22,533 nucleotides of DNA from a virus. The position numbers were made by a program, and so were the translations under genes. The stretch covers positions 1 to 22,533 of the IMG/VR virus record IMGVR_UViG_3300034198_002556; one strand, given 5' to 3'. This document shows positions 558-13,801 of this stretch, piece by piece; positions within the stretch are counted from its first letter, which is position 1, and each line of letters starts with the position of its first letter. The notes under the pieces were generated by a model, which made no database searches, had not been told where the DNA came from, and worked only from the letters and a program-made list of their open reading frames with translations.

Positions 558-794
558 TTATTTTTTAGTAACTAATTCGTATGCAATTTTTACGTCTCTT
601 ATATCGAACTTTCCTTCATTAAGTATTACTCTATCACAGTATTCTGAGATGGCTATTGTGTCTTCAATCGTACACAATCCTATTGTCTCCCATTCATTTG
701 ACTTTCTATTGGTAGGTCCACTTTCTGTTAATGGATTAAAGTGAAGACATTTTTGTTTGATGCTATACTCTTGGTATCCTACTTCTGTTGTCAT
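558..794 (-). CDS. hypothetical protein, 78 aa
   Basis: The frame starts at ATG 794-792, which overlaps the stop of the 47-aa gene upstream as ATGA. It encodes a soluble protein of mixed composition ending in VTKK, with no membrane segment. The middle (TIEDTIAISEYCDRVIL) is probably helical. I do not recognise a family. The length, the coupling and the continuity with the minus-strand operon support a real gene. The overlapping plus-strand frame at 547-744 is its shadow. Confidence 0.62.
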   Translation of the reverse strand: MTTEVGYQEYSIKQKCLHFNPLTESGPTNRKSNEWETIGLCTIEDTIAISEYCDRVILNEGKFDIRDVKIAYELVTKK

Positions 795-934
795 TGCGTG
801 TTGTTTTTACGTTCATACCATCTGCGATACATTGATGCGGCCACCGCTATGCGTTGAGGCAGGAACGGATAGTCGCTCTTTAGTCGAGCAGTTGCAATAC
901 GCATAAACTGCTCTCGTAACTCTTTTGTGCTCAT
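791..934 (-). CDS. hypothetical basic protein, 47 aa
   Basis: A short frame from ATG 934-932 to TGA 793-791, starting MSTKELREQFMRIATARL. It is rich in arginine and lysine, probably helical, and carries YPFLPQRIAVAASMYRRWY, a pattern typical of small phage proteins of unknown role. It overlaps the next gene as ATGA and begins 15 bases after the stop of the start-less frame at 950-1099. No family named. Confidence 0.6.
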   Translation of the reverse strand: MSTKELREQFMRIATARLKSDYPFLPQRIAVAASMYRRWYERKNNTQ

Positions 935-949
935 TATCAGTTAATTATA

Positions 950-1099
950 CTATTTGTTTATTTGACACATTGCGCCTGTATTGCGCTCGTATACTACCGA
1001 GTAGTCGTTCGTCTTACCGAGTCGGCGGCGAGGGGGCCCTTCAAAGCCCCCATAGCCGCTTATCGTGTTGTCTGTTACGGCAAAGCCGATAGGGCGAAG
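950..1099 (-). other. protein-like open frame without a normal start codon
   Basis: Between an in-frame TAA (1102-1100) and a TAG (952-950) lie 49 sense codons reading LRPIGFAVTDNTISGYGG, then FEGPPRRRLGKTNDYSVVYE and RNTGAMCQINK. The composition is very protein-like and the frame fits the operon spacing, because the next ATG is 15 bases on. There is no ATG, GTG or TTG except a Met six codons from the end. It may use a near-cognate start (ATC or ATA), be a gene that lost its start, or be chance. A GC-rich hairpin (1025-1059) lies inside it. Confidence 0.35.
1025..1059. other. GC-rich hairpin
   Basis: GGGGGC (1032-1037) pairs with GCCCCC (1046-1051) around an 8-nt loop. An outer GCGGC (1025-1029) pairs with GCCGC (1055-1059). 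This gives 11 G-C pairs in all, far more stable than its surroundings. No T-run follows on either strand, so it is not a standard terminator. It lies within the start-less frame at 950-1099. Confidence 0.6.
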
Positions 1100-1150
1100 T
1101 TAGCGCTCGTTAGTGAGACAATCAATGCTTTGTAAACAAGTGTTGATAAC

Positions 1151-4356: not shown

Positions 4357-5865
4357 TTACAACTTACCTGCGGCCTTGTTGACTGAGTAAGTACCGAACT
4401 TGCTCTCGACCTCGCGGCGAACGTAGCCCTGTACGCTGTCGTAGGCTCGTTTCATACGCTCGATGGTGCGGTCGTAGTTGTCAGCATCGGTGAGAAACTC
4501 GCTCGGTGACTGACCTTCGAGACATCCGCCGAACACGTAGGTGAGGGCTTGTTTACGAGCCAACTTGTCTACGCTGTACTGCTGACGGAGTAACTTGTTC
4601 AACTTCTTGTCGTTGAACATAGCATCGGCCACCTGAGTGAACGTGGTGAACGTACTCTTGTCGATGTGAGCGCATATCCACTGAACCAACTTCGTGCGGA
4701 ACTTGATTGACTCGAGCGTAGATACTGCGCTGAAGATGCGAATCTCAACTGCCTCCTTGCGGTTGTTGTAGGAACGTGAGCAGTTGTTGATGGCGCGGCG
4801 TGAACCTCGCTTGATTTCATCCTTGTTCTGAACTCCGCTGTACTGATTGGACAGGCGGCCTTCGTAGAGTGAGAAAAGCATAGGTACGAACGGAGCCAAC
4901 TTGTCGACGAGGTCATCGGCTGAAATTCCACGACGGCTGATGGTGATGTGGCCACCACAGCGGCGTGAGTACTCTGCGTTCATAACCCAATCGTACTTCT
5001 CGAACTGCTCGAACAATGTCTTCGTATCGAACAGGTTGAGTACAGGTGACACAACCTCGACACCTGTCGATGAATCGAGTGAGCCGTCGCGCTCGGCAAT
5101 CCATCCGTCACCCAAGTTGCAGTTAGCACGAGCACAGCGGTTGCGAACATTCAGGTCCTCCTTCTCAACCTCGAAACCTACGAACCACTCAACTGATGAA
5201 TCGTTGAAGATTTCGGTGTTGCGTGATGGGCCGTGGTAACCGCTAAGTTCAGGGGCCGCACCGAAGCGCTCTTGAATATCGGAGTTGGCGAAGATTGCCG
5301 TATTGCCCCGAAGGTCACGACCTGTTAAGTACTCAGTGTCACCTGCACGAATTGCAGAAAATACGTGGCCGTACTCGTTGTCTTGGAAACGCAACTCGTG
5401 AGCCTCTCCGTTCGCATCGTAGAACTTCACCGATGTGGTTGCGTACTGACGAACGACAAGGTCGGTCGTGTGCAGTACTCCGCCTATGAGCAGTGATACG
5501 TACGTGTTTGACTCTGATTCACGAACTTCGAAGTTGACCTTCTCAGCATCGGTTAGCGTAACGTGAGAAATGCCGAGGATGCGGCGCTCAGACACGTACT
5601 CGCTACGGAAGTAACGACCTCGCATAATTTGCTGACCGCGCAGTTCGAATGATGCCGACGAGTGCAGACCTGTACGAAGGTCGATGCCCCATTCAGCGGC
5701 GTTGAGTGCACGAGGGAAACGAGTGCGGTTAAGTTCACCTTCGTTGTTGGCGTAGGTGTACACAAAGAAGTCGTTGTTGATACCGAAGTAGAAGTTGAAC
5801 TGCTCGTTGAAGTAAGCGCGTCGGATTTCAATCTGACGGCCTGATACGATATTGGTAACTTTCAT
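4357..5865 (-). CDS. amidoligase (glutamine-synthetase-like COOH-NH2 ligase)
   Basis: A 502-aa protein. Residues about 226-400 carry the amidoligase family pattern (Amidoligase_2 type): GFEVEKED (230-237), ERDGSL (258-263), GVEVVSP (268-274), CGGHITISRRG (303-313) and RKEAVEIRIF (369-378). These correspond to the metal- and ATP-binding acidic, histidine and arginine residues of the glutamine-synthetase fold. Family members use ATP to join an amine to a carboxylate, and have been predicted to modify peptides or make peptide tags. The first 225 residues are a beta-rich region of unknown function, and the last 100 are helical. The A-rich leader before ATG 5865 is typical of Bacteroidota. A class II glutamine amidotransferase in the same operon could supply ammonia. 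Substrate unknown: wall peptides or proteins are guesses. Confidence 0.88.
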   Translation of the reverse strand: MKVTNIVSGRQIEIRRAYFNEQFNFYFGINNDFFVYTYANNEGELNRTRFPRALNAAEWGIDLRTGLHSSASFELRGQQIMRGRYFRSEYVSERRILGISHVTLTDAEKVNFEVRESESNTYVSLLIGGVLHTTDLVVRQYATTSVKFYDANGEAHELRFQDNEYGHVFSAIRAGDTEYLTGRDLRGNTAIFANSDIQERFGAAPELSGYHGPSRNTEIFNDSSVEWFVGFEVEKEDLNVRNRCARANCNLGDGWIAERDGSLDSSTGVEVVSPVLNLFDTKTLFEQFEKYDWVMNAEYSRRCGGHITISRRGISADDLVDKLAPFVPMLFSLYEGRLSNQYSGVQNKDEIKRGSRRAINNCSRSYNNRKEAVEIRIFSAVSTLESIKFRTKLVQWICAHIDKSTFTTFTQVADAMFNDKKLNKLLRQQYSVDKLARKQALTYVFGGCLEGQSPSEFLTDADNYDRTIERMKRAYDSVQGYVRREVESKFGTYSVNKAAGKL

Positions 5866-5899
5866 TTTGTTTTGTTTTTGAATTAGTGGTTAAAGTTTG

Positions 5900-5950
5900 A
5901 CTGCCGTAGGGACTCGAACCCTATGCACGATGTGCACTCCAAGCGGCAGT
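5900..5950 (-). ncRNA. 51-nt tRNA-like element without D-arm
   Basis: On the minus strand, ACTGCCG (5950-5944) pairs perfectly with CGGCAGT (5906-5900) as a 7-bp acceptor-like stem. Next to it is a canonical T-arm, TAGGG-TTCGAGT-CCCTA (5923-5907), which includes the GGTTCGAnTCC consensus. Between them are a 7-nt single strand CTTGGAG and a 5-bp hairpin TGCAC-ATC-GTGCA (5936-5924). A D-arm and a standard anticodon stem are missing, so it is not a working tRNA by normal rules. It sits in the leader of the amidoligase gene. Confidence 0.65.
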
Positions 5951-5975
5951 AATGTGCCTTGAACAGGTGAACTTT

Positions 5976-6074
5976 TTTGGCGGCCTGTGGCGTGAGCCTG
6001 TTGACCGCATATGCTGTTAGTTCATCCACACCTGCTATCCTTTGGCGGCGCTGTTTACGCACCGCATATTCTGT
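5976..6074. repeat. two imperfect direct repeats (TTTGGCGGC ... ACCGCATAT)
   Basis: Unit 1 (5976-6017) and unit 2 (6041-6074) both begin TTTGGCGGC and end ACCGCATATkCTGT, with different spacers between. The ACCGCATAT boxes are 57 bases apart, a multiple of three, so the repeats also read in the same frame of the start-less minus-strand ORF (TEYAVR and TAYAVN). Confidence 0.55.
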
Positions 6075-6137
6075 CTTTCGCTTGATGTTGTTTTCGGCTT
6101 TGTTTTGACTTGATTCACTCAGGTGTTCAGGTGGCGT

Positions 6138-6578
6138 TCATTGGACTCCTCCGCACTGCTTGTCGCTCCGCGCCACGGCGCTTTGCTTCATTAGGTTTGG
6201 ACTCGTGTTTCTTACGGCCGCCGTACTTGGCTTTGCTTGTCTTGTCTACCTGCCCTCGCTACTTTCAATCGACCTGTGTTGGCTTACTTGCGCTACGCTT
6301 TCTGCTTACATCGCTCTACTATCCTGACCTGACCTGCTACTCCGCTCCTTAACGCCCGAGAGAAAGTGGCCGTGGCTCACTGACTCAATCGTACAAGGTT
6401 CACAAGGTGGGTTTCAGAAATTGGAGAGGCGTTTTCGCCAACATCCGTTCGTCTATCGTCACTTGGGACTTTCCTGCCTAATCCGCTCTGCTCTTGTCTC
6501 CGACTCTGAGTTCGCGTTTCGGTTGATATTTCAAAAAACTTCGTCGAGTGGTGGTGGCCCGTTGGCCTTTCGACACCA
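6138..6578 (-). other. purine-rich minus-strand leader, no intact gene
   Basis: This stretch follows the minus-strand promoter at 6586 and precedes the tRNA-like element. The minus strand is rich in A and G. It contains several short protein-like frames, none with a normal start, for example 6258-6130 (KAKYGGRKKHESKPNEAKRR). A longer frame ending at 6377 begins upstream of the promoter. I read the region as a long RNA leader, a decayed gene or both. The plus-strand frame at 6110-6352 is a mirror of this composition and is not called. Confidence 0.4.
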
Positions 6579-6586
6579 CAAACATA
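6579..6586 (-). promoter_or_regulatory. candidate promoter for the left operon
   Basis: TATGTTTG on the minus strand matches the Bacteroidota -7 element TAnnTTTG exactly. No clear TTTG is found at the usual 20-base spacing, so it is supported only by the -7 box and by its position upstream of the whole left operon with no other candidate between it and the amidoligase gene. Confidence 0.5.
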
Positions 6587-6711
6587 CGCAAACTTTCCAA
6601 AAACGAAAAGTTTCACCAAAAGAATTTTCGAGGAGCCCACGCCCCTTATAGGAATATATAGGGCTAACTGCTTGATAATCAGCACCAAAAAAAAAGTTAC
6701 TTCGAAGTGAA

Positions 6712-6730
6712 ATTTAGAATCGTTCTAAAT
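6712..6730. repeat. perfect inverted repeat, 8 bp arms
   Basis: ATTTAGAA (6712-6719) and TTCTAAAT (6723-6730) are separated by 3 bases. A 10-bp palindrome ACTTCGAAGT lies just upstream (about 6698-6707). Both border the iteron-like array, a common arrangement for operators or origin elements. Confidence 0.6.
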
Positions 6731-6738
6731 AATACTAC

Positions 6739-6870
6739 CTGAAAATCAACGAGTTAGTAAACCACTGAAAACCAAGTACTTACTAACAGGCTAAAACTCA
6801 GCAAGTTACAACATACTGAAACACAGATAGTTAACGTAACTACCTGATAATCAGCGTCATTTAAGATATC
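6739..6870. repeat. array of five ~26-bp direct repeats (iteron-like)
   Basis: Units begin at 6739, 6765, 6791, 6816 and 6844 (spacings 26, 26, 25, 28). Each opens with a 12-base core close to CTGAnAAnCAGC, and the first four cores are followed by an AGTTAnTAAC-like tail. The last core, CTGATAATCAG, is a perfect palindrome. TGATAATCAGC also recurs exactly at about 6673, before the array. Unit length near 2.5 helical turns, divergence between units and position between divergent operons suggest binding sites for a replication initiator or repressor. Confidence 0.65.
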
Positions 6871-7034
6871 GTATGTACGTAATTCAGCACCTAACTGATT
6901 GAACCACAACAGCATAACCCGACCCAATATGTACCAAATACGGGCAAAAGCATACTTTTTCCATTGTAGAAACTATTAGTATAATTCCTGCCGTAATCGT
7001 TAACTGAGGCCCTGTCTACTATAGTATACTAAAT

Positions 7035-7068
7035 AAACATACACGAAACATACAGCGAAACGTACTCG
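7035..7068. repeat. three tandem 11-12 bp repeats
   Basis: AAACATACACG (7035-7045), AAACATACAGCG (7046-7057) and AAACGTACTCG (7058-7068) lie head to tail just after the palindrome TAGTATACTA (7022-7031). Read on the minus strand, two of the three units contain TATGTTT, close to the -7 promoter element. They may be protein-binding sites or weak promoters. Confidence 0.5.
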
Positions 7069-7077
7069 AAAAGTTTA

Positions 7078-7117
7078 GGGGAGTAGGTGGGATAATGTGG
7101 GGAAAAGTAGAGAGGGG
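7078..7117 (+). other. G-run cluster, possible G-quadruplex
   Basis: Four runs of three or four G lie at 7078-7081, 7089-7091, 7099-7102 and 7114-7117 with loops of 7, 7 and 11 bases. This satisfies a relaxed quadruplex pattern. In a gene-free control region it could affect replication or transcription, but stability with an 11-base loop is uncertain. Confidence 0.4.
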
Positions 7118-7159
7118 ATTGATGCAGGTCTGCGACCGAACACACCCACGAAAAAAAAC

Positions 7160-7209
7160 ATACGTTCAGTACACTTTTCCTACAGCAAACGACCTGAATA
7201 CGTTCAGTA
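7160..7209. repeat. repeated 12-mer ATACGTTCAGTA
   Basis: Exact copies lie at 7160-7171 and 7198-7209. The second is part of the inverted repeat CTGAA-TACG-TTCAG (7194-7207). They may be a second class of protein-binding site in the control region. Confidence 0.5.
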
Positions 7210-7436
7210 AACCGACGCCTAAGCGACATAGAGTAGACATACCACACAGGAGCCTACCCAAACAGGAAACGCTAAAAAGTTTGAACGTAACGTGCTGTAA
7301 ACGAGGGGGTTGGGTTCAGGATTCGGTTTCGGAGTACGTCCGTCAGCGTCGCTCTTGTATAATTCTCCCCACTACACGTAGAACTCGTTGTCGAATTAAA
7401 ACATATGTATCCCATAGATAAATAAAGACAACGGTG

Positions 7437-7467
7437 GAATACTTAAATAGCAGTTAAATAAGTATTC
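7437..7467. other. inverted repeat, possible terminator of the 7649-7437 unit
   Basis: GAATACTTA (7437-7445) and TAAGTATTC (7459-7467) are perfect 9-bp arms around a 13-base loop. On the minus strand it is followed by a weak T-rich stretch (GTTGTCTTTATTTA). It could end the small minus-strand transcript from 7649 or serve as an operator. It overlaps the end of the start-less frame. Confidence 0.45.
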
Positions 7468-7601
7468 TTGGGGGGTATGAACTGATTGAACACACGCCAC
7501 CTGTATTCAGAGTACTTTGCGAGGCTGTCGCCCTCCTTCTTTGCAGCGGCGGACTGTCGCTTGAGGCTGTCCTCTGCTGCAATCGTGTCGTAGTTACGAC
7601 T
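7443..7601 (-). other. start-less protein-like frame / candidate structured RNA
   Basis: Between TAG 7604-7602 and TAA 7445-7443 lie 52 sense codons with a convincing protein look: SRNYDTIAAEDSLKRQSAAA, then KKEGDSLAKYSEYRWRVFNQ and FIPPKNTYLTAI. No ATG, GTG or TTG occurs at a useful place; the best near-cognate is ATT at 7583. The same DNA can fold: TTGCAGC (7541-7547) pairs with GCTGCAA (7576-7582), and GAGG/CCTC hairpins lie at 7521-7535 and 7563-7574. A strong promoter and a 5' hairpin precede it. Either a short gene with an unusual start, a remnant, or a regulatory RNA. Confidence 0.4.
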
Positions 7602-7627
7602 CTAGGACGTTAGGTATACTGCGGTAG

Positions 7628-7648
7628 GTAGTGCTACTCTTGCACTAC
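7628..7648 (-). other. hairpin at the 5' end of the small minus-strand transcript
   Basis: On the minus strand GTAGTGC (7648-7642) pairs perfectly with GCACTAC (7634-7628) around a 7-nt loop. It starts about six bases after the promoter box, so the RNA would begin with a stem-loop, as in stable small RNAs. Confidence 0.6.
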
Positions 7649-7653
7649 AGAGG

Positions 7654-7685
7654 CAAAGGTACACAAGAAATTTGACATAATCAAT
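7654..7685 (-). promoter_or_regulatory. Bacteroidota-type promoter, minus strand
   Basis: TACCTTTG (7661-7654, minus) matches the -7 element exactly, and ATTG (7685-7682) lies at the expected 20-base spacing as the -33 element. This is the only minus-strand promoter here with both parts at good spacing. It points into the gene-free region, not at a normal gene. Confidence 0.7.
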
Positions 7686-7735
7686 AGTGTGTAATACATA
7701 GTACCGACATTCGTGAGCATATAAGTAAGAATGTT

Positions 7736-7743
7736 TACCTTTG
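7736..7743 (+). promoter_or_regulatory. promoter for the M15 peptidase gene
   Basis: TACCTTTG matches the -7 element. Transcription would start near 7750, leaving a leader of about 14 bases before ATG 7764. A start codon at 7731 would lie upstream of this point, so the box also decides the start. The -33 element is not clear. Confidence 0.62.
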
Positions 7744-7763
7744 CTTCTATAACACAGATAGTT

Positions 7764-8225
7764 ATGCAACTGACAGAGAACTTTTCGCTCAAAGAGCTTA
7801 CGGATAGCCCGACGGCTGATAAGTTGGGGATTAAGAACACCCCGGACGAGAAACAACTCGCAGCACTTCAACTGCTAGCTGAGAAGATTCTACAGCCCCT
7901 GCGTGAGGGGATTGATAAGCCTATTAAGATTAACAGTGGCCTGCGTGGCACAGCACTGAATAAAGCCATCGGCGGGTCAACCACCTCACAGCATTGTAAG
8001 GGAGAGGCTGCGGACCTTAGCCTTAAGTCAGTTAAGAACGGTAATGCGTTGTTGTTCCACTACATCAGAGAGAATCTTGTGTTCGACCAAATGATTTGGG
8101 AGTTTGGGACTGATGAGAACCCTGACTGGGTACACGTTAGCTACTCAGCTAAGGGCAACCGCAAGGAGATTCTTAAGGCATACAAGCACCACGGTAAGAC
8201 GGCCTACAAACTCTGGAAGCCGTGA
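7764..8225 (+). CDS. M15-family peptidase (peptidoglycan peptide cleavage)
   Basis: A 153-aa protein of the M15 family (Peptidase_M15_3 / D-alanyl-D-alanine carboxypeptidase-like). The zinc-site pattern SxHxxGxAxD is complete as SQHCKGEAAD, with H77 and D84. The second part, WEFGTDENPDWVHVS, supplies H124 and the catalytic acid at or near E113. SGLRGTALNKAIGG is the usual lead-in. Family members cut the peptide stems of peptidoglycan. There is no signal peptide, so export would need a holin or virion delivery. Promoter TACCTTTG 21 bases upstream fixes the ATG at 7764. It heads a coupled run of small plus-strand genes. Likely the endolysin or a virion-associated wall enzyme. Confidence 0.9.
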   Translation: MQLTENFSLKELTDSPTADKLGIKNTPDEKQLAALQLLAEKILQPLREGIDKPIKINSGLRGTALNKAIGGSTTSQHCKGEAADLSLKSVKNGNALLFHYIRENLVFDQMIWEFGTDENPDWVHVSYSAKGNRKEILKAYKHHGKTAYKLWKP

Positions 8226-11398: not shown

Positions 11399-11675
11399 AT
11401 TCACCACCATTGATGCGGCCATCAGACTTATGGAGTCGATGGAGGTCGCCATCAACAATATGATTGAGGAGATTAAGAAGCCAGTCGACCCGGAAATCAA
11501 CGGGTCTGCACGCAAGGCTGAGCTCCAATCAATCAAACAGACGGCAGTTGATGCTCGTGAGCTTCTGCAAGAAAGGCAACGGCTCGAGGAGATGATTAAG
11601 ATGCTATCCGAGAACGGGAGTATGGGTGAGCAAGTCGACTTTGCGGGTGGCTTCGCTGAGAAATTCAGGAAGTAA
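11379..11675 (+). CDS. probable small terminase subunit, 98 aa
   Basis: A helical protein: MSRKKSEFTTIDAAIRLMES, then EVAINNMIEEIKKPVDPEIN, and a long coiled coil (ARKAELQSIKQTAVDARELL, QERQRLEEMIKMLSENG), ending FAEKFRK. Small size, coiled coil and immediate coupling to the large terminase gene (TAATG) fit a small terminase subunit, which recognises phage DNA as a ring oligomer. No clear helix-turn-helix is visible, so another packaging adaptor is possible. The start overlaps the GroES-like gene by 20 bases. The in-frame Met at 11430 is a less likely alternative. Confidence 0.6.
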   Translation: MSRKKSEFTTIDAAIRLMESMEVAINNMIEEIKKPVDPEINGSARKAELQSIKQTAVDARELLQERQRLEEMIKMLSENGSMGEQVDFAGGFAEKFRK

Positions 11676-13801
11676 TGGCTGGGCTAAGGAAGGTTGATGG
11701 ATATAAAGACTTCTTGGTGAACATCTGTCCGGATGATTCGCAGGGAGATGTTATTGAGATATCCGACATCTTCATCCAGCTACCCAAGAAGCCAGCTAAG
11801 ACAGAGATTCTGTTCCACGACAAGAAGCGTGAGGAGCAGATGTGGAAGAGATTGCCAGTACCTCAGGACTTAGTGCGTGTACGCTCTATGGATGAGTGGA
11901 TGGAGCAGCCCAAGGAGTTCCGTATAAAACATAATGCTTACATCGAGCAGGAGTTCCACCGCCGTAGGAACGGTGTGTGGTTCTATAATAACGGTGTTCC
12001 AACATATATTACTGGACATCACTATATGCTACTGCAGTGGAGCCAGATGGACATCGGTTACGCCAGCTTCCTAGACTTCCAGCGTACAATCTTCCTACAT
12101 CTGGAGGCGTGCAAACAAGACCCGAGGTGTGTGGGACAGATATACACCAAGTGTCGACGCTCAGGTTACACCAACATCTGTGGTTCTGCACTGGCAGATG
12201 AGGGTACTCAGGTATCCAATAAGGTGCTAGGCATTATGTCCAAGACAGGTAAGGACGCACAGGAGAACATCTTTATGAAGAAGCTACTCCCGATGTTCCG
12301 CTCCTACCCATTCTTCTTCAAGCCTATTCAGGATGGTACGACCAACCCACGTGTGGAGCTCGCATTCCGTGAGCCAGCTAAGCGAATCACAAAGACCAAC
12401 AAAGTCAGTGGGCAGACCGAAGCTCTTGATACGGTAATCAATTGGAAGAACTCAGTTGCCAACGCATACGACGGTGAGAAACTACACTATCTATACCTCG
12501 ATGAGGCCGGAAAGTGGGAGAATCCGCTCGATATCAATGAAGTTTGGCGTGTACACAGGACCTGTCTGCTGGTAGGTAAGAAGATTGTAGGTAAGGCTAT
12601 GGTCGGCTCAACTGTTAACCCTCTGGATAAGGGCGGAGCCAACTACAAGAAGCTGTACTACGACTCGGACCCCACCAAGCGTAACGAGAACGGCCGCACT
12701 AAGAGTGGACTCTACAAACTGTTTATCCCAGCATACGAGGCACTGGAGGGATTCTTCGACGTGTACGGTATGCCCGTGGTTGAGGACCCAGCGGAGCCAA
12801 CGCTTACGATGGATGGAGACATCATCAGCATCGGAGCTAAGACGTATCTATCGAACGAGCGTAAGGCACTGATGCACGACCCGTATGAACTCAATGAGGT
12901 TATCCGTCAGTTCCCGTGGAGCGAGGAGGAGGCATTCCGTGACTCCACCAAGTCATCTCACTTCAACGTGGGAAAGATTTACGAGCAGTTGCAGCACAAC
13001 AGAGAGTTATACCCAAGCCCCGTAATCAAGGGCAACTTCGTGTGGAAGGACGGCAAGCCAGACACCGAGGTTCTATGGAACCCAGACGCTAGCGGTAGAT
13101 GGACGGTTACGTGGCTACCACCCGATGATATTCGAAACAAACGAAAGACGGAGTTCGGTAAGGTATTCCCCGGGAATGACCACCTAGGAACTGGAGGAGT
13201 TGACTCCTATGACCTCGACAATACGATGGACGGACGTGGCTCTAAGGGGGCCTGCCACATCTACAATAAGTTCAATATGAGCTATCCGTCGAATATGTTC
13301 GTGGCTGAGTACGCCAACAGACCTCCGCTAGCCAGAATCTTCTATGAGGATGTACTGATGGCCGCAGTGTTCTACGGATATCCACTGCTCATAGAGAACA
13401 ACAAATATGGGATAGTACGATACTTCGAATCACGAGGATACGACGGATACATTATGGACAGACCAGAGCACCTAAGGGCCCCCGGTTCTAGTTCCAACGT
13501 CAAGACCAAGGGTATCCCATCTAACTCACAGGACGTGATACAGGCCCACGCACAGGCTATCGAGGCGTACGTACACGAGCACGTGGGTCTTAACGCAGAG
13601 AGTGGTGATTACGGTAAGATGTACCTAGATAAGACCCTCGAAGACTGGATTGGTTACCGAATCGACGACCGAACTAAGTTTGACTTGACCATCAGTTCAG
13701 GTCTCGCACTGCTCGCAGCACAGCGTGTAAAACAGGAGCGTAAGTCAGCAGATATGTCATCAAAAGTATTCCTCAGGCGATTCAAGGACATAACTCGCTA
13801 A
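11675..13801 (+). CDS. terL: large terminase subunit (packaging ATPase-nuclease)
   Basis: A 708-aa protein. The ATPase half has an unusual Walker A-like site KCRRSGYT (159-166), where the usual GK[ST] lysine is absent and basic residues come earlier. It also has a clear Walker B YLYLDEAG with D276 and E277, and a coupling motif VGSTVNP near 310. The C-terminal nuclease half shows the first acidic metal site in GVDSYD (about residue 508) and a final aspartate in DRTKFDLTI (about 670). The protein drives DNA into the prohead and cuts it at the end. Size and style are like terminases of Bacteroidota phages. The start overlaps the small subunit stop by one base. Confidence 0.93.
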   Translation: MAGLRKVDGYKDFLVNICPDDSQGDVIEISDIFIQLPKKPAKTEILFHDKKREEQMWKRLPVPQDLVRVRSMDEWMEQPKEFRIKHNAYIEQEFHRRRNGVWFYNNGVPTYITGHHYMLLQWSQMDIGYASFLDFQRTIFLHLEACKQDPRCVGQIYTKCRRSGYTNICGSALADEGTQVSNKVLGIMSKTGKDAQENIFMKKLLPMFRSYPFFFKPIQDGTTNPRVELAFREPAKRITKTNKVSGQTEALDTVINWKNSVANAYDGEKLHYLYLDEAGKWENPLDINEVWRVHRTCLLVGKKIVGKAMVGSTVNPLDKGGANYKKLYYDSDPTKRNENGRTKSGLYKLFIPAYEALEGFFDVYGMPVVEDPAEPTLTMDGDIISIGAKTYLSNERKALMHDPYELNEVIRQFPWSEEEAFRDSTKSSHFNVGKIYEQLQHNRELYPSPVIKGNFVWKDGKPDTEVLWNPDASGRWTVTWLPPDDIRNKRKTEFGKVFPGNDHLGTGGVDSYDLDNTMDGRGSKGACHIYNKFNMSYPSNMFVAEYANRPPLARIFYEDVLMAAVFYGYPLLIENNKYGIVRYFESRGYDGYIMDRPEHLRAPGSSSNVKTKGIPSNSQDVIQAHAQAIEAYVHEHVGLNAESGDYGKMYLDKTLEDWIGYRIDDRTKFDLTISSGLALLAAQRVKQERKSADMSSKVFLRRFKDITR

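Follow-up and report, generated by a model that had tools for sequence, protein, structure and literature searches.

A candidate structured RNA unit behind a host-type promoter in a Bacteroidota phage, with a second copy in the same genome and relatives in other phages

What does a phage make from a strong minus-strand promoter when the next 1.5 kb contain no gene? The question is raised by a linear virus record of 22.5 kb, called the window here, which belongs to a flavobacterial phage. The terminase and portal of this phage match PHROG families 6681 and 6547, and its nearest named relatives (33-48% terminase identity) are an uncultured spring-water phage, Flavobacterium elemo phages and Cellulophaga phages. 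Its minus-strand genes start at 5865 and read leftwards, its plus-strand late operon starts at 7764 with an M15 endolysin, and the unit under study sits inside the 1.9 kb without an evident gene that lie between these positions. The original prediction had left three readings side by side, namely a phage regulatory RNA, a gene initiating at ATT and a gene remnant. A conserved promoter, a covarying hairpin, a conserved 3' motif and a second copy all speak for the first of these, and we consider it probable (roughly 0.62) that the unit gives rise to a non-coding structured RNA, transcribed from a strong promoter by the host sigma-A-type polymerase and acting in cis, which would be one of two copies in this phage and a member of a wider family.

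The promoter of the unit, hereafter copy 1, occupies positions 7654 to 7684 of the minus strand and is of the flavobacterial type, TTGATTATGTC-N12-TACCTTTG. It comprises TTG (7684-7682), a spacing of 20 nucleotides and TACCTTTG (7661-7654), and its -33 region forms the quasi-palindrome TTGAttatgTCAA. The predicted promoter is of a rare and conserved form: a scan of both strands for TTG-N20-TANNTT[TC]G found only two matches in the window, at 7684-7654 and 1125-1095, and relatives keep TTGAYwwTnTC-N12-TAmCTTyGC at the same place. The sites follow the consensus for host-type promoters of the phylum (PMC6847099; PMC9723704), and given that the TAnnTTTG element is placed at -12 to -5 (PMC9723704), the RNA of copy 1 would start at about 7649. 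Judged by this conservation, the host sigma-A-type RNA polymerase would transcribe the unit from the promoter at 7684-7654. A scan for E. coli-type promoters and terminators called nothing, as expected, since Bacteroidota promoters differ from those of E. coli. Divergent from the promoter of copy 1 is the -7 element TACCTTTG of the late operon (7736-7743, plus strand), and an inverted repeat (7646-7665 and 7732-7751) spans the divergent pair; relatives have TATCTTTG where this divergent element lies in the window. The listed ORF start, ATG 7731, is found just upstream of the late -7 element, and ATG 7764 is the more probable start of the M15 endolysin.

Downstream of copy 1 follows a conserved non-coding block of 147 nt (7243-7389, minus strand), which reads GGGGAGAATTATAC...CCGAAAC..GAATCC.GAACCCAACCCCCT...AAACTTTTTAGCGTTT and can also be written GGGGATTATATAC..CCGAAAC..ACCCCACCCCC..AAACTTTTAGGCTTTTT. 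Its orientation is constant among relatives, and nhmmer matched it in about 25 TerL relatives at the same place, with identity down to 66%. Upstream of this block, the promoter is present at constant N20 spacing in about 16 relatives and is inverted in about 12 more.

The predicted RNA of copy 1 measures about 213-215 nt (7437-7649, minus strand), with a start set by the promoter and an uncertain 3' end; in relatives, the DNA of this stretch is conserved and a protein is not. It opens with the anticipated 7-bp hairpin, GTAGTGC-aagagta-GCACTAC (7648-7628, minus strand), of which the GTGC/GCAC core is kept in the nearest relatives only. The main hairpin, TTGCAGC ... GGAC-a-GC-ctcaa-GC-gaca-GTCC ... 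GCTGCAA (7541-7582, minus strand), reached a covariation score of 0.237 among five distinct relatives. Shuffles gave 0.103, with 1 of 500 matching the observed score, and slid versions of the hairpin scored 0.03-0.10 on the same five sequences. In this set, 87.5% of the cells pair and three pairs carry double changes; a sample of five is small, yet the pairing is consistent. Independent compensatory changes were also seen outside the set, in L083/L084 (TGT..ACA vs TGC..GCA) and in L010/L239 (GGGCT/AGCCC vs GGGGT/ACCCC). As to the nested stems that had been proposed, TTGCAGC/GCTGCAA is conserved, whereas the two GAGG/CCTC stems are not conserved pairings and GGAC/GTCC inside the main hairpin is. 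Over 219 nt, the RNA has a fold z of -2.65, a stability equalled by 3 of 200 shuffles, whereas the window's RNA taken by itself and trimmed folds only moderately (z = -1.07); we take the conservation of promoter and hairpin in relatives as stronger proof than fold energy. Further along lies the 3' motif CTGAATACAGGTGGCGTGTGTTCAATCAG, also written GAATACAGGTGGCGTGTGTTC (7482-7510, minus strand), which was recovered by an EM motif search in other Bacteroidota phage leaders. The RNA had been expected to end at a 9-bp inverted repeat, and this repeat is indeed present (7437-7467, minus strand), with arms GAATACTTA (7467-7459) and TAAGTATTC (7445-7437) followed by TTGTCTTTATTT. However, the arms are A+T-rich, the T-rich stretch behind them is loose and the terminator scan called no standard terminator at 7467-7437, which leaves the repeat as a possible weak terminator.

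The other promoter match, TTGATTGTCTC-N12-TAACTTCG (1095-1125, minus strand), heads a second copy at a distance of 6.5 kb, with the G+C-rich hairpin GCGGCtatGGGGGCtttgaaggGCCCCCtcGCCGC (1025-1059) and the 3' motif GCGCAATACAGGCGCAATGTGTC (964-986), both on the minus strand. Directly behind copy 2 is an ORF of 47 aa, MSTKELREQFMRIATARLKSDYPFLPQRIAVAASMYRRWYERKNNTQ (791-934, minus strand), and homologues of this ORF follow the same leader in three relatives (L250, L292 and L303); on this arrangement, copy 2 would be the 5' leader of the 47-aa ORF. Five related genomes each contain exactly two promoter sites, on one strand and 6.4-6.9 kb apart, while a reversed-pattern control in the same genomes gave none. 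In L183 (reverse complement 11454-11784), the usual small gene is replaced by a different gene of 158 aa (MSKILKLKNMV...), which starts inside the copy 2 motif, and the leader is therefore not tied to one gene.

How far the unit extends beyond these genomes was addressed with a promoter-pattern scan of IMG/VR, from which we took, among the matches listed, 100 dereplicated downstream stretches; the pattern matches surely include chance ones. EM motif search in these 100 leaders, again among the matches listed, returned a 20-nt motif with the consensus RtAtacaGGcgcAcTaTgTyC (for example GGCGCATTGTGTTC and GGGCTAATTATATTC), mostly 90-220 nt behind the promoter. The motif was recovered in one of three held-out splits, with 25 of 50 unseen leaders above the 5% shuffle level; in the other two, EM settled on G+C hairpins (15-16 of 50) and not on the motif. 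Sixty motif-bearing leaders have a mean fold z of -1.67, compared with -0.58 for the DNA upstream and -0.29 for the DNA downstream, and a stricter apical motif (stem-RNM-GC-N4-6-GC-RNA-stem) marks a subset only, 6 of 61 against 0.5 in shuffles. We rejected the 3' motif as a phage-specific promoter, given that it is not scattered through the window or the genomes. Among phages with names, an uncultured spring-water phage, MW202828, has a clear leader; no clear leader was seen in the Flavobacterium elemo phage or in large parts of Cellulophaga phi18:3 and phi38:1, and blastn found no match to the leaders among isolates in the phage collection. The strict promoter pattern occurs twice in 85,000 bacterial genomes, neither time with the motif, and this near-absence makes the unit look viral. 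Rfam 15 had no match in window positions 6900-8000 even at E<=5 and yielded only tRNAs over 12 related loci, ARAGORN called no tRNA or tmRNA, and a search of the open-access literature found no description of such a leader or RNA family. Our best reading is that the family is undescribed and belongs among phage leader or small RNAs. As with RNA candidates of the Weinberg type and Rfam families, it was found by comparative genomics and has covarying stems; in contrast to 6S, tmRNA, riboswitches, GOLLD, ROOL and other Rfam families, neither the window nor its relatives are matched by any Rfam 15 model.

Taken together, the predicted unit consists of the promoter TTGAYwwTnTC-N12-TAmCTTyGC and a leader 90-200 nt long, which contains a G+C-rich hairpin and the terminal motif. 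Of 61 leaders, 25 are followed by an ORF of at least 35 codons whose start lies no more than about 75 nt, and mostly no more than 40 nt, past the motif. Gene starts thus lie about 1-70 nt from the motif in many relatives, which makes the RNA there an mRNA leader. The other motif-bearing leaders have no ORF behind the motif, and a few have a terminator instead: in class A, that is, relatives with the RNA on the minus strand as in the window, intrinsic terminators immediately follow the motif in L032 and L345 and, by eye, in L053 and L332. These terminators end the RNA at about 170-190 nt, and in these few relatives it would be a stand-alone small RNA. Copy 1 might be either a stand-alone RNA or a long leader of the minus-strand operon. 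In the mechanism that we favour, the folded leader would act in cis, on the very transcript at whose start it lies. Most likely it would alter termination or elongation, or shield and present the 5' end of the main phage transcripts.

The most testable form of this mechanism is antitermination of the kind known from the put RNA of the lambdoid phage HK022, a nascent leader that binds the host RNA polymerase in cis and thereby enables read-through of terminators. The put RNAs occur twice per genome, directly behind strong promoters and independent of the following gene. The window leaders likewise stand directly behind strong promoters and in more than one transcript, as put and the nut sites of lambda do; the five related genomes each have two homologous leaders, placed directly behind two strong host-type promoters; L183 shows a leader that is independent of the gene behind it; and copy 1 would need read-through of 1.5 kb of untranslated DNA. 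However, terminators sit right behind the motif in L032 and L345, and the leaders are for the most part longer than put, as it is generally described, and more varied. Put has two adjacent stem-loops and nut has boxA/boxB; the predicted folds here show one main G+C hairpin and, close to the start codon, a terminal motif. The leaders belong to Bacteroidota phages, and both copies lie on one strand. In a comparison by description we saw no sequence or structural match to put, and the general Rfam search gave no match. We regard host polymerase binding in cis, a special case of our main reading, as doubtful though not far-fetched.

A second possibility, which we regard as doubtful though not far-fetched, is that copy 1 works in trans as a stand-alone small RNA, either by base pairing with mRNAs of the host or the phage or by sequestering a protein. 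Copy 1 may be a free small RNA, given that no gene follows for 1.5 kb and that some relatives have a terminator at about 170-190 nt (L032 and L345, by eye L053 and L332). The unit resembles known phage-encoded small regulatory RNAs in being short and structured, in having a promoter of its own and, in some relatives, in ending at a terminator. In contrast to these, the same RNA unit here doubles as a 5' leader of phage genes, as in copy 2 and the class B copies, and outside the hairpin and motif the sequence varies, an uncommon trait in an RNA that acts by seed pairing.

The cis-acting leader that we prefer takes on an additional feature in distant terminase relatives, in which the unit adjoins the one-way block and is itself found in either orientation. 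The order there is palindrome, promoter, RNA, palindrome. Across 3.6 Mb of fetched loci, the palindrome, TTAAAG-N5-CTTTAA (17 bases), is present at 33 distinct places, 31 of which have a promoter of this kind within 330 nt. One palindrome begins 19-20 nt upstream of the promoter, the one on the other side follows about 165-290 nt downstream, and the block comes about 65-90 nt after the nearer palindrome, whichever way the cassette points. These fixed positions indicate a palindrome-bounded cassette that has been inverted as a unit, and inversion of such precision implies that the module evolves as a unit, too. On the TerL tree, orientation, which was read from consensus contigs as one orientation per contig, changes four times, at least two of these changes being forced by well-supported branches (2-4 inversions), and it is so clustered that 0 of 500 shuffles were as low; inversion therefore looks rare. 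Rapid phase inversion is unsupported, as orientation follows the tree. The cassettes share with Bacteroidota invertons a promoter segment of about 200-260 bp between repeats and the occurrence of both orientations in distant relatives, whereas they differ in that the repeats are palindromes, orientation follows phylogeny and the repeats are gone in the clade of the window, which has the minus orientation and lacks TTAAAG-N5-CTTTAA palindromes. It is an attractive but unlikely proposal that the invertible cassette gives one regulatory leader to either the minus-strand or the late operon and represents a general cis regulator, for example an antitermination RNA, that would be the first in the phylum.

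In other members, the flanking palindromes look like operators for a regulator, and together with the divergent promoter pair they might suggest that the region controls transcription at the DNA level only, the RNA fold being incidental. We consider this rather improbable, given that the covarying hairpin and the motif lie inside the transcribed part and that the leaders fold better than their flanks.

That the unit is a protein gene with an unusual ATT start, or the remnant of one, is scarcely credible: although a 52-codon open frame exists (7443-7601 with its stop, codons 7601-7446, minus strand), it is broken by frame-shifting indels or stops in 13 of 13 homologous loci and has no homologues, which removes both readings. 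The frame begins as had been described, behind a TAG and with no ATG, GTG or TTG at its start, but it does not withstand comparison as a true protein. Even in the nearest relatives, which share about 80% of the DNA sequence, six indels shift the frame and a stop interrupts it, and neither an intact protein nor a normal ATG gene was found in this frame among the relatives compared. With the 52-aa query, IMG/VR gave only a contig nearly identical to the window, and the phage records gave no real match; across IMG/VR, phage records, Pfam and PHROGs, nothing beyond this contig and chance matches emerged. A 52-codon open frame is in itself not rare, and its protein-like look stems from the G+C-rich hairpin sequence.

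Little is known about regulation in Bacteroidota phages. An RNA module that recurs behind their strongest host-type promoters, once or twice per genome, now offers a concrete handle on it.

The DNA beyond copy 1 holds further features. The whole 1.9-kb gap (5866-7389) is conserved without an evident gene, at 73-89% DNA identity in relatives; the stretch 6853-5872, for example, is 79% identical to L086 over 999 nt, and the gap could harbour a further RNA or an origin of replication. Within it, direct repeats of the form TAACTrCyTGATAATCAGC, 89% alike and iteron-like, are located at 6665-6683 and 6837-6855. The first gene behind copy 1 (4357-5865, minus strand) encodes 502 aa with a weak amidoligase match (E 0.006), and a pattern search of IMG/VR found just three close relatives of it, though the flanking DNA is conserved.
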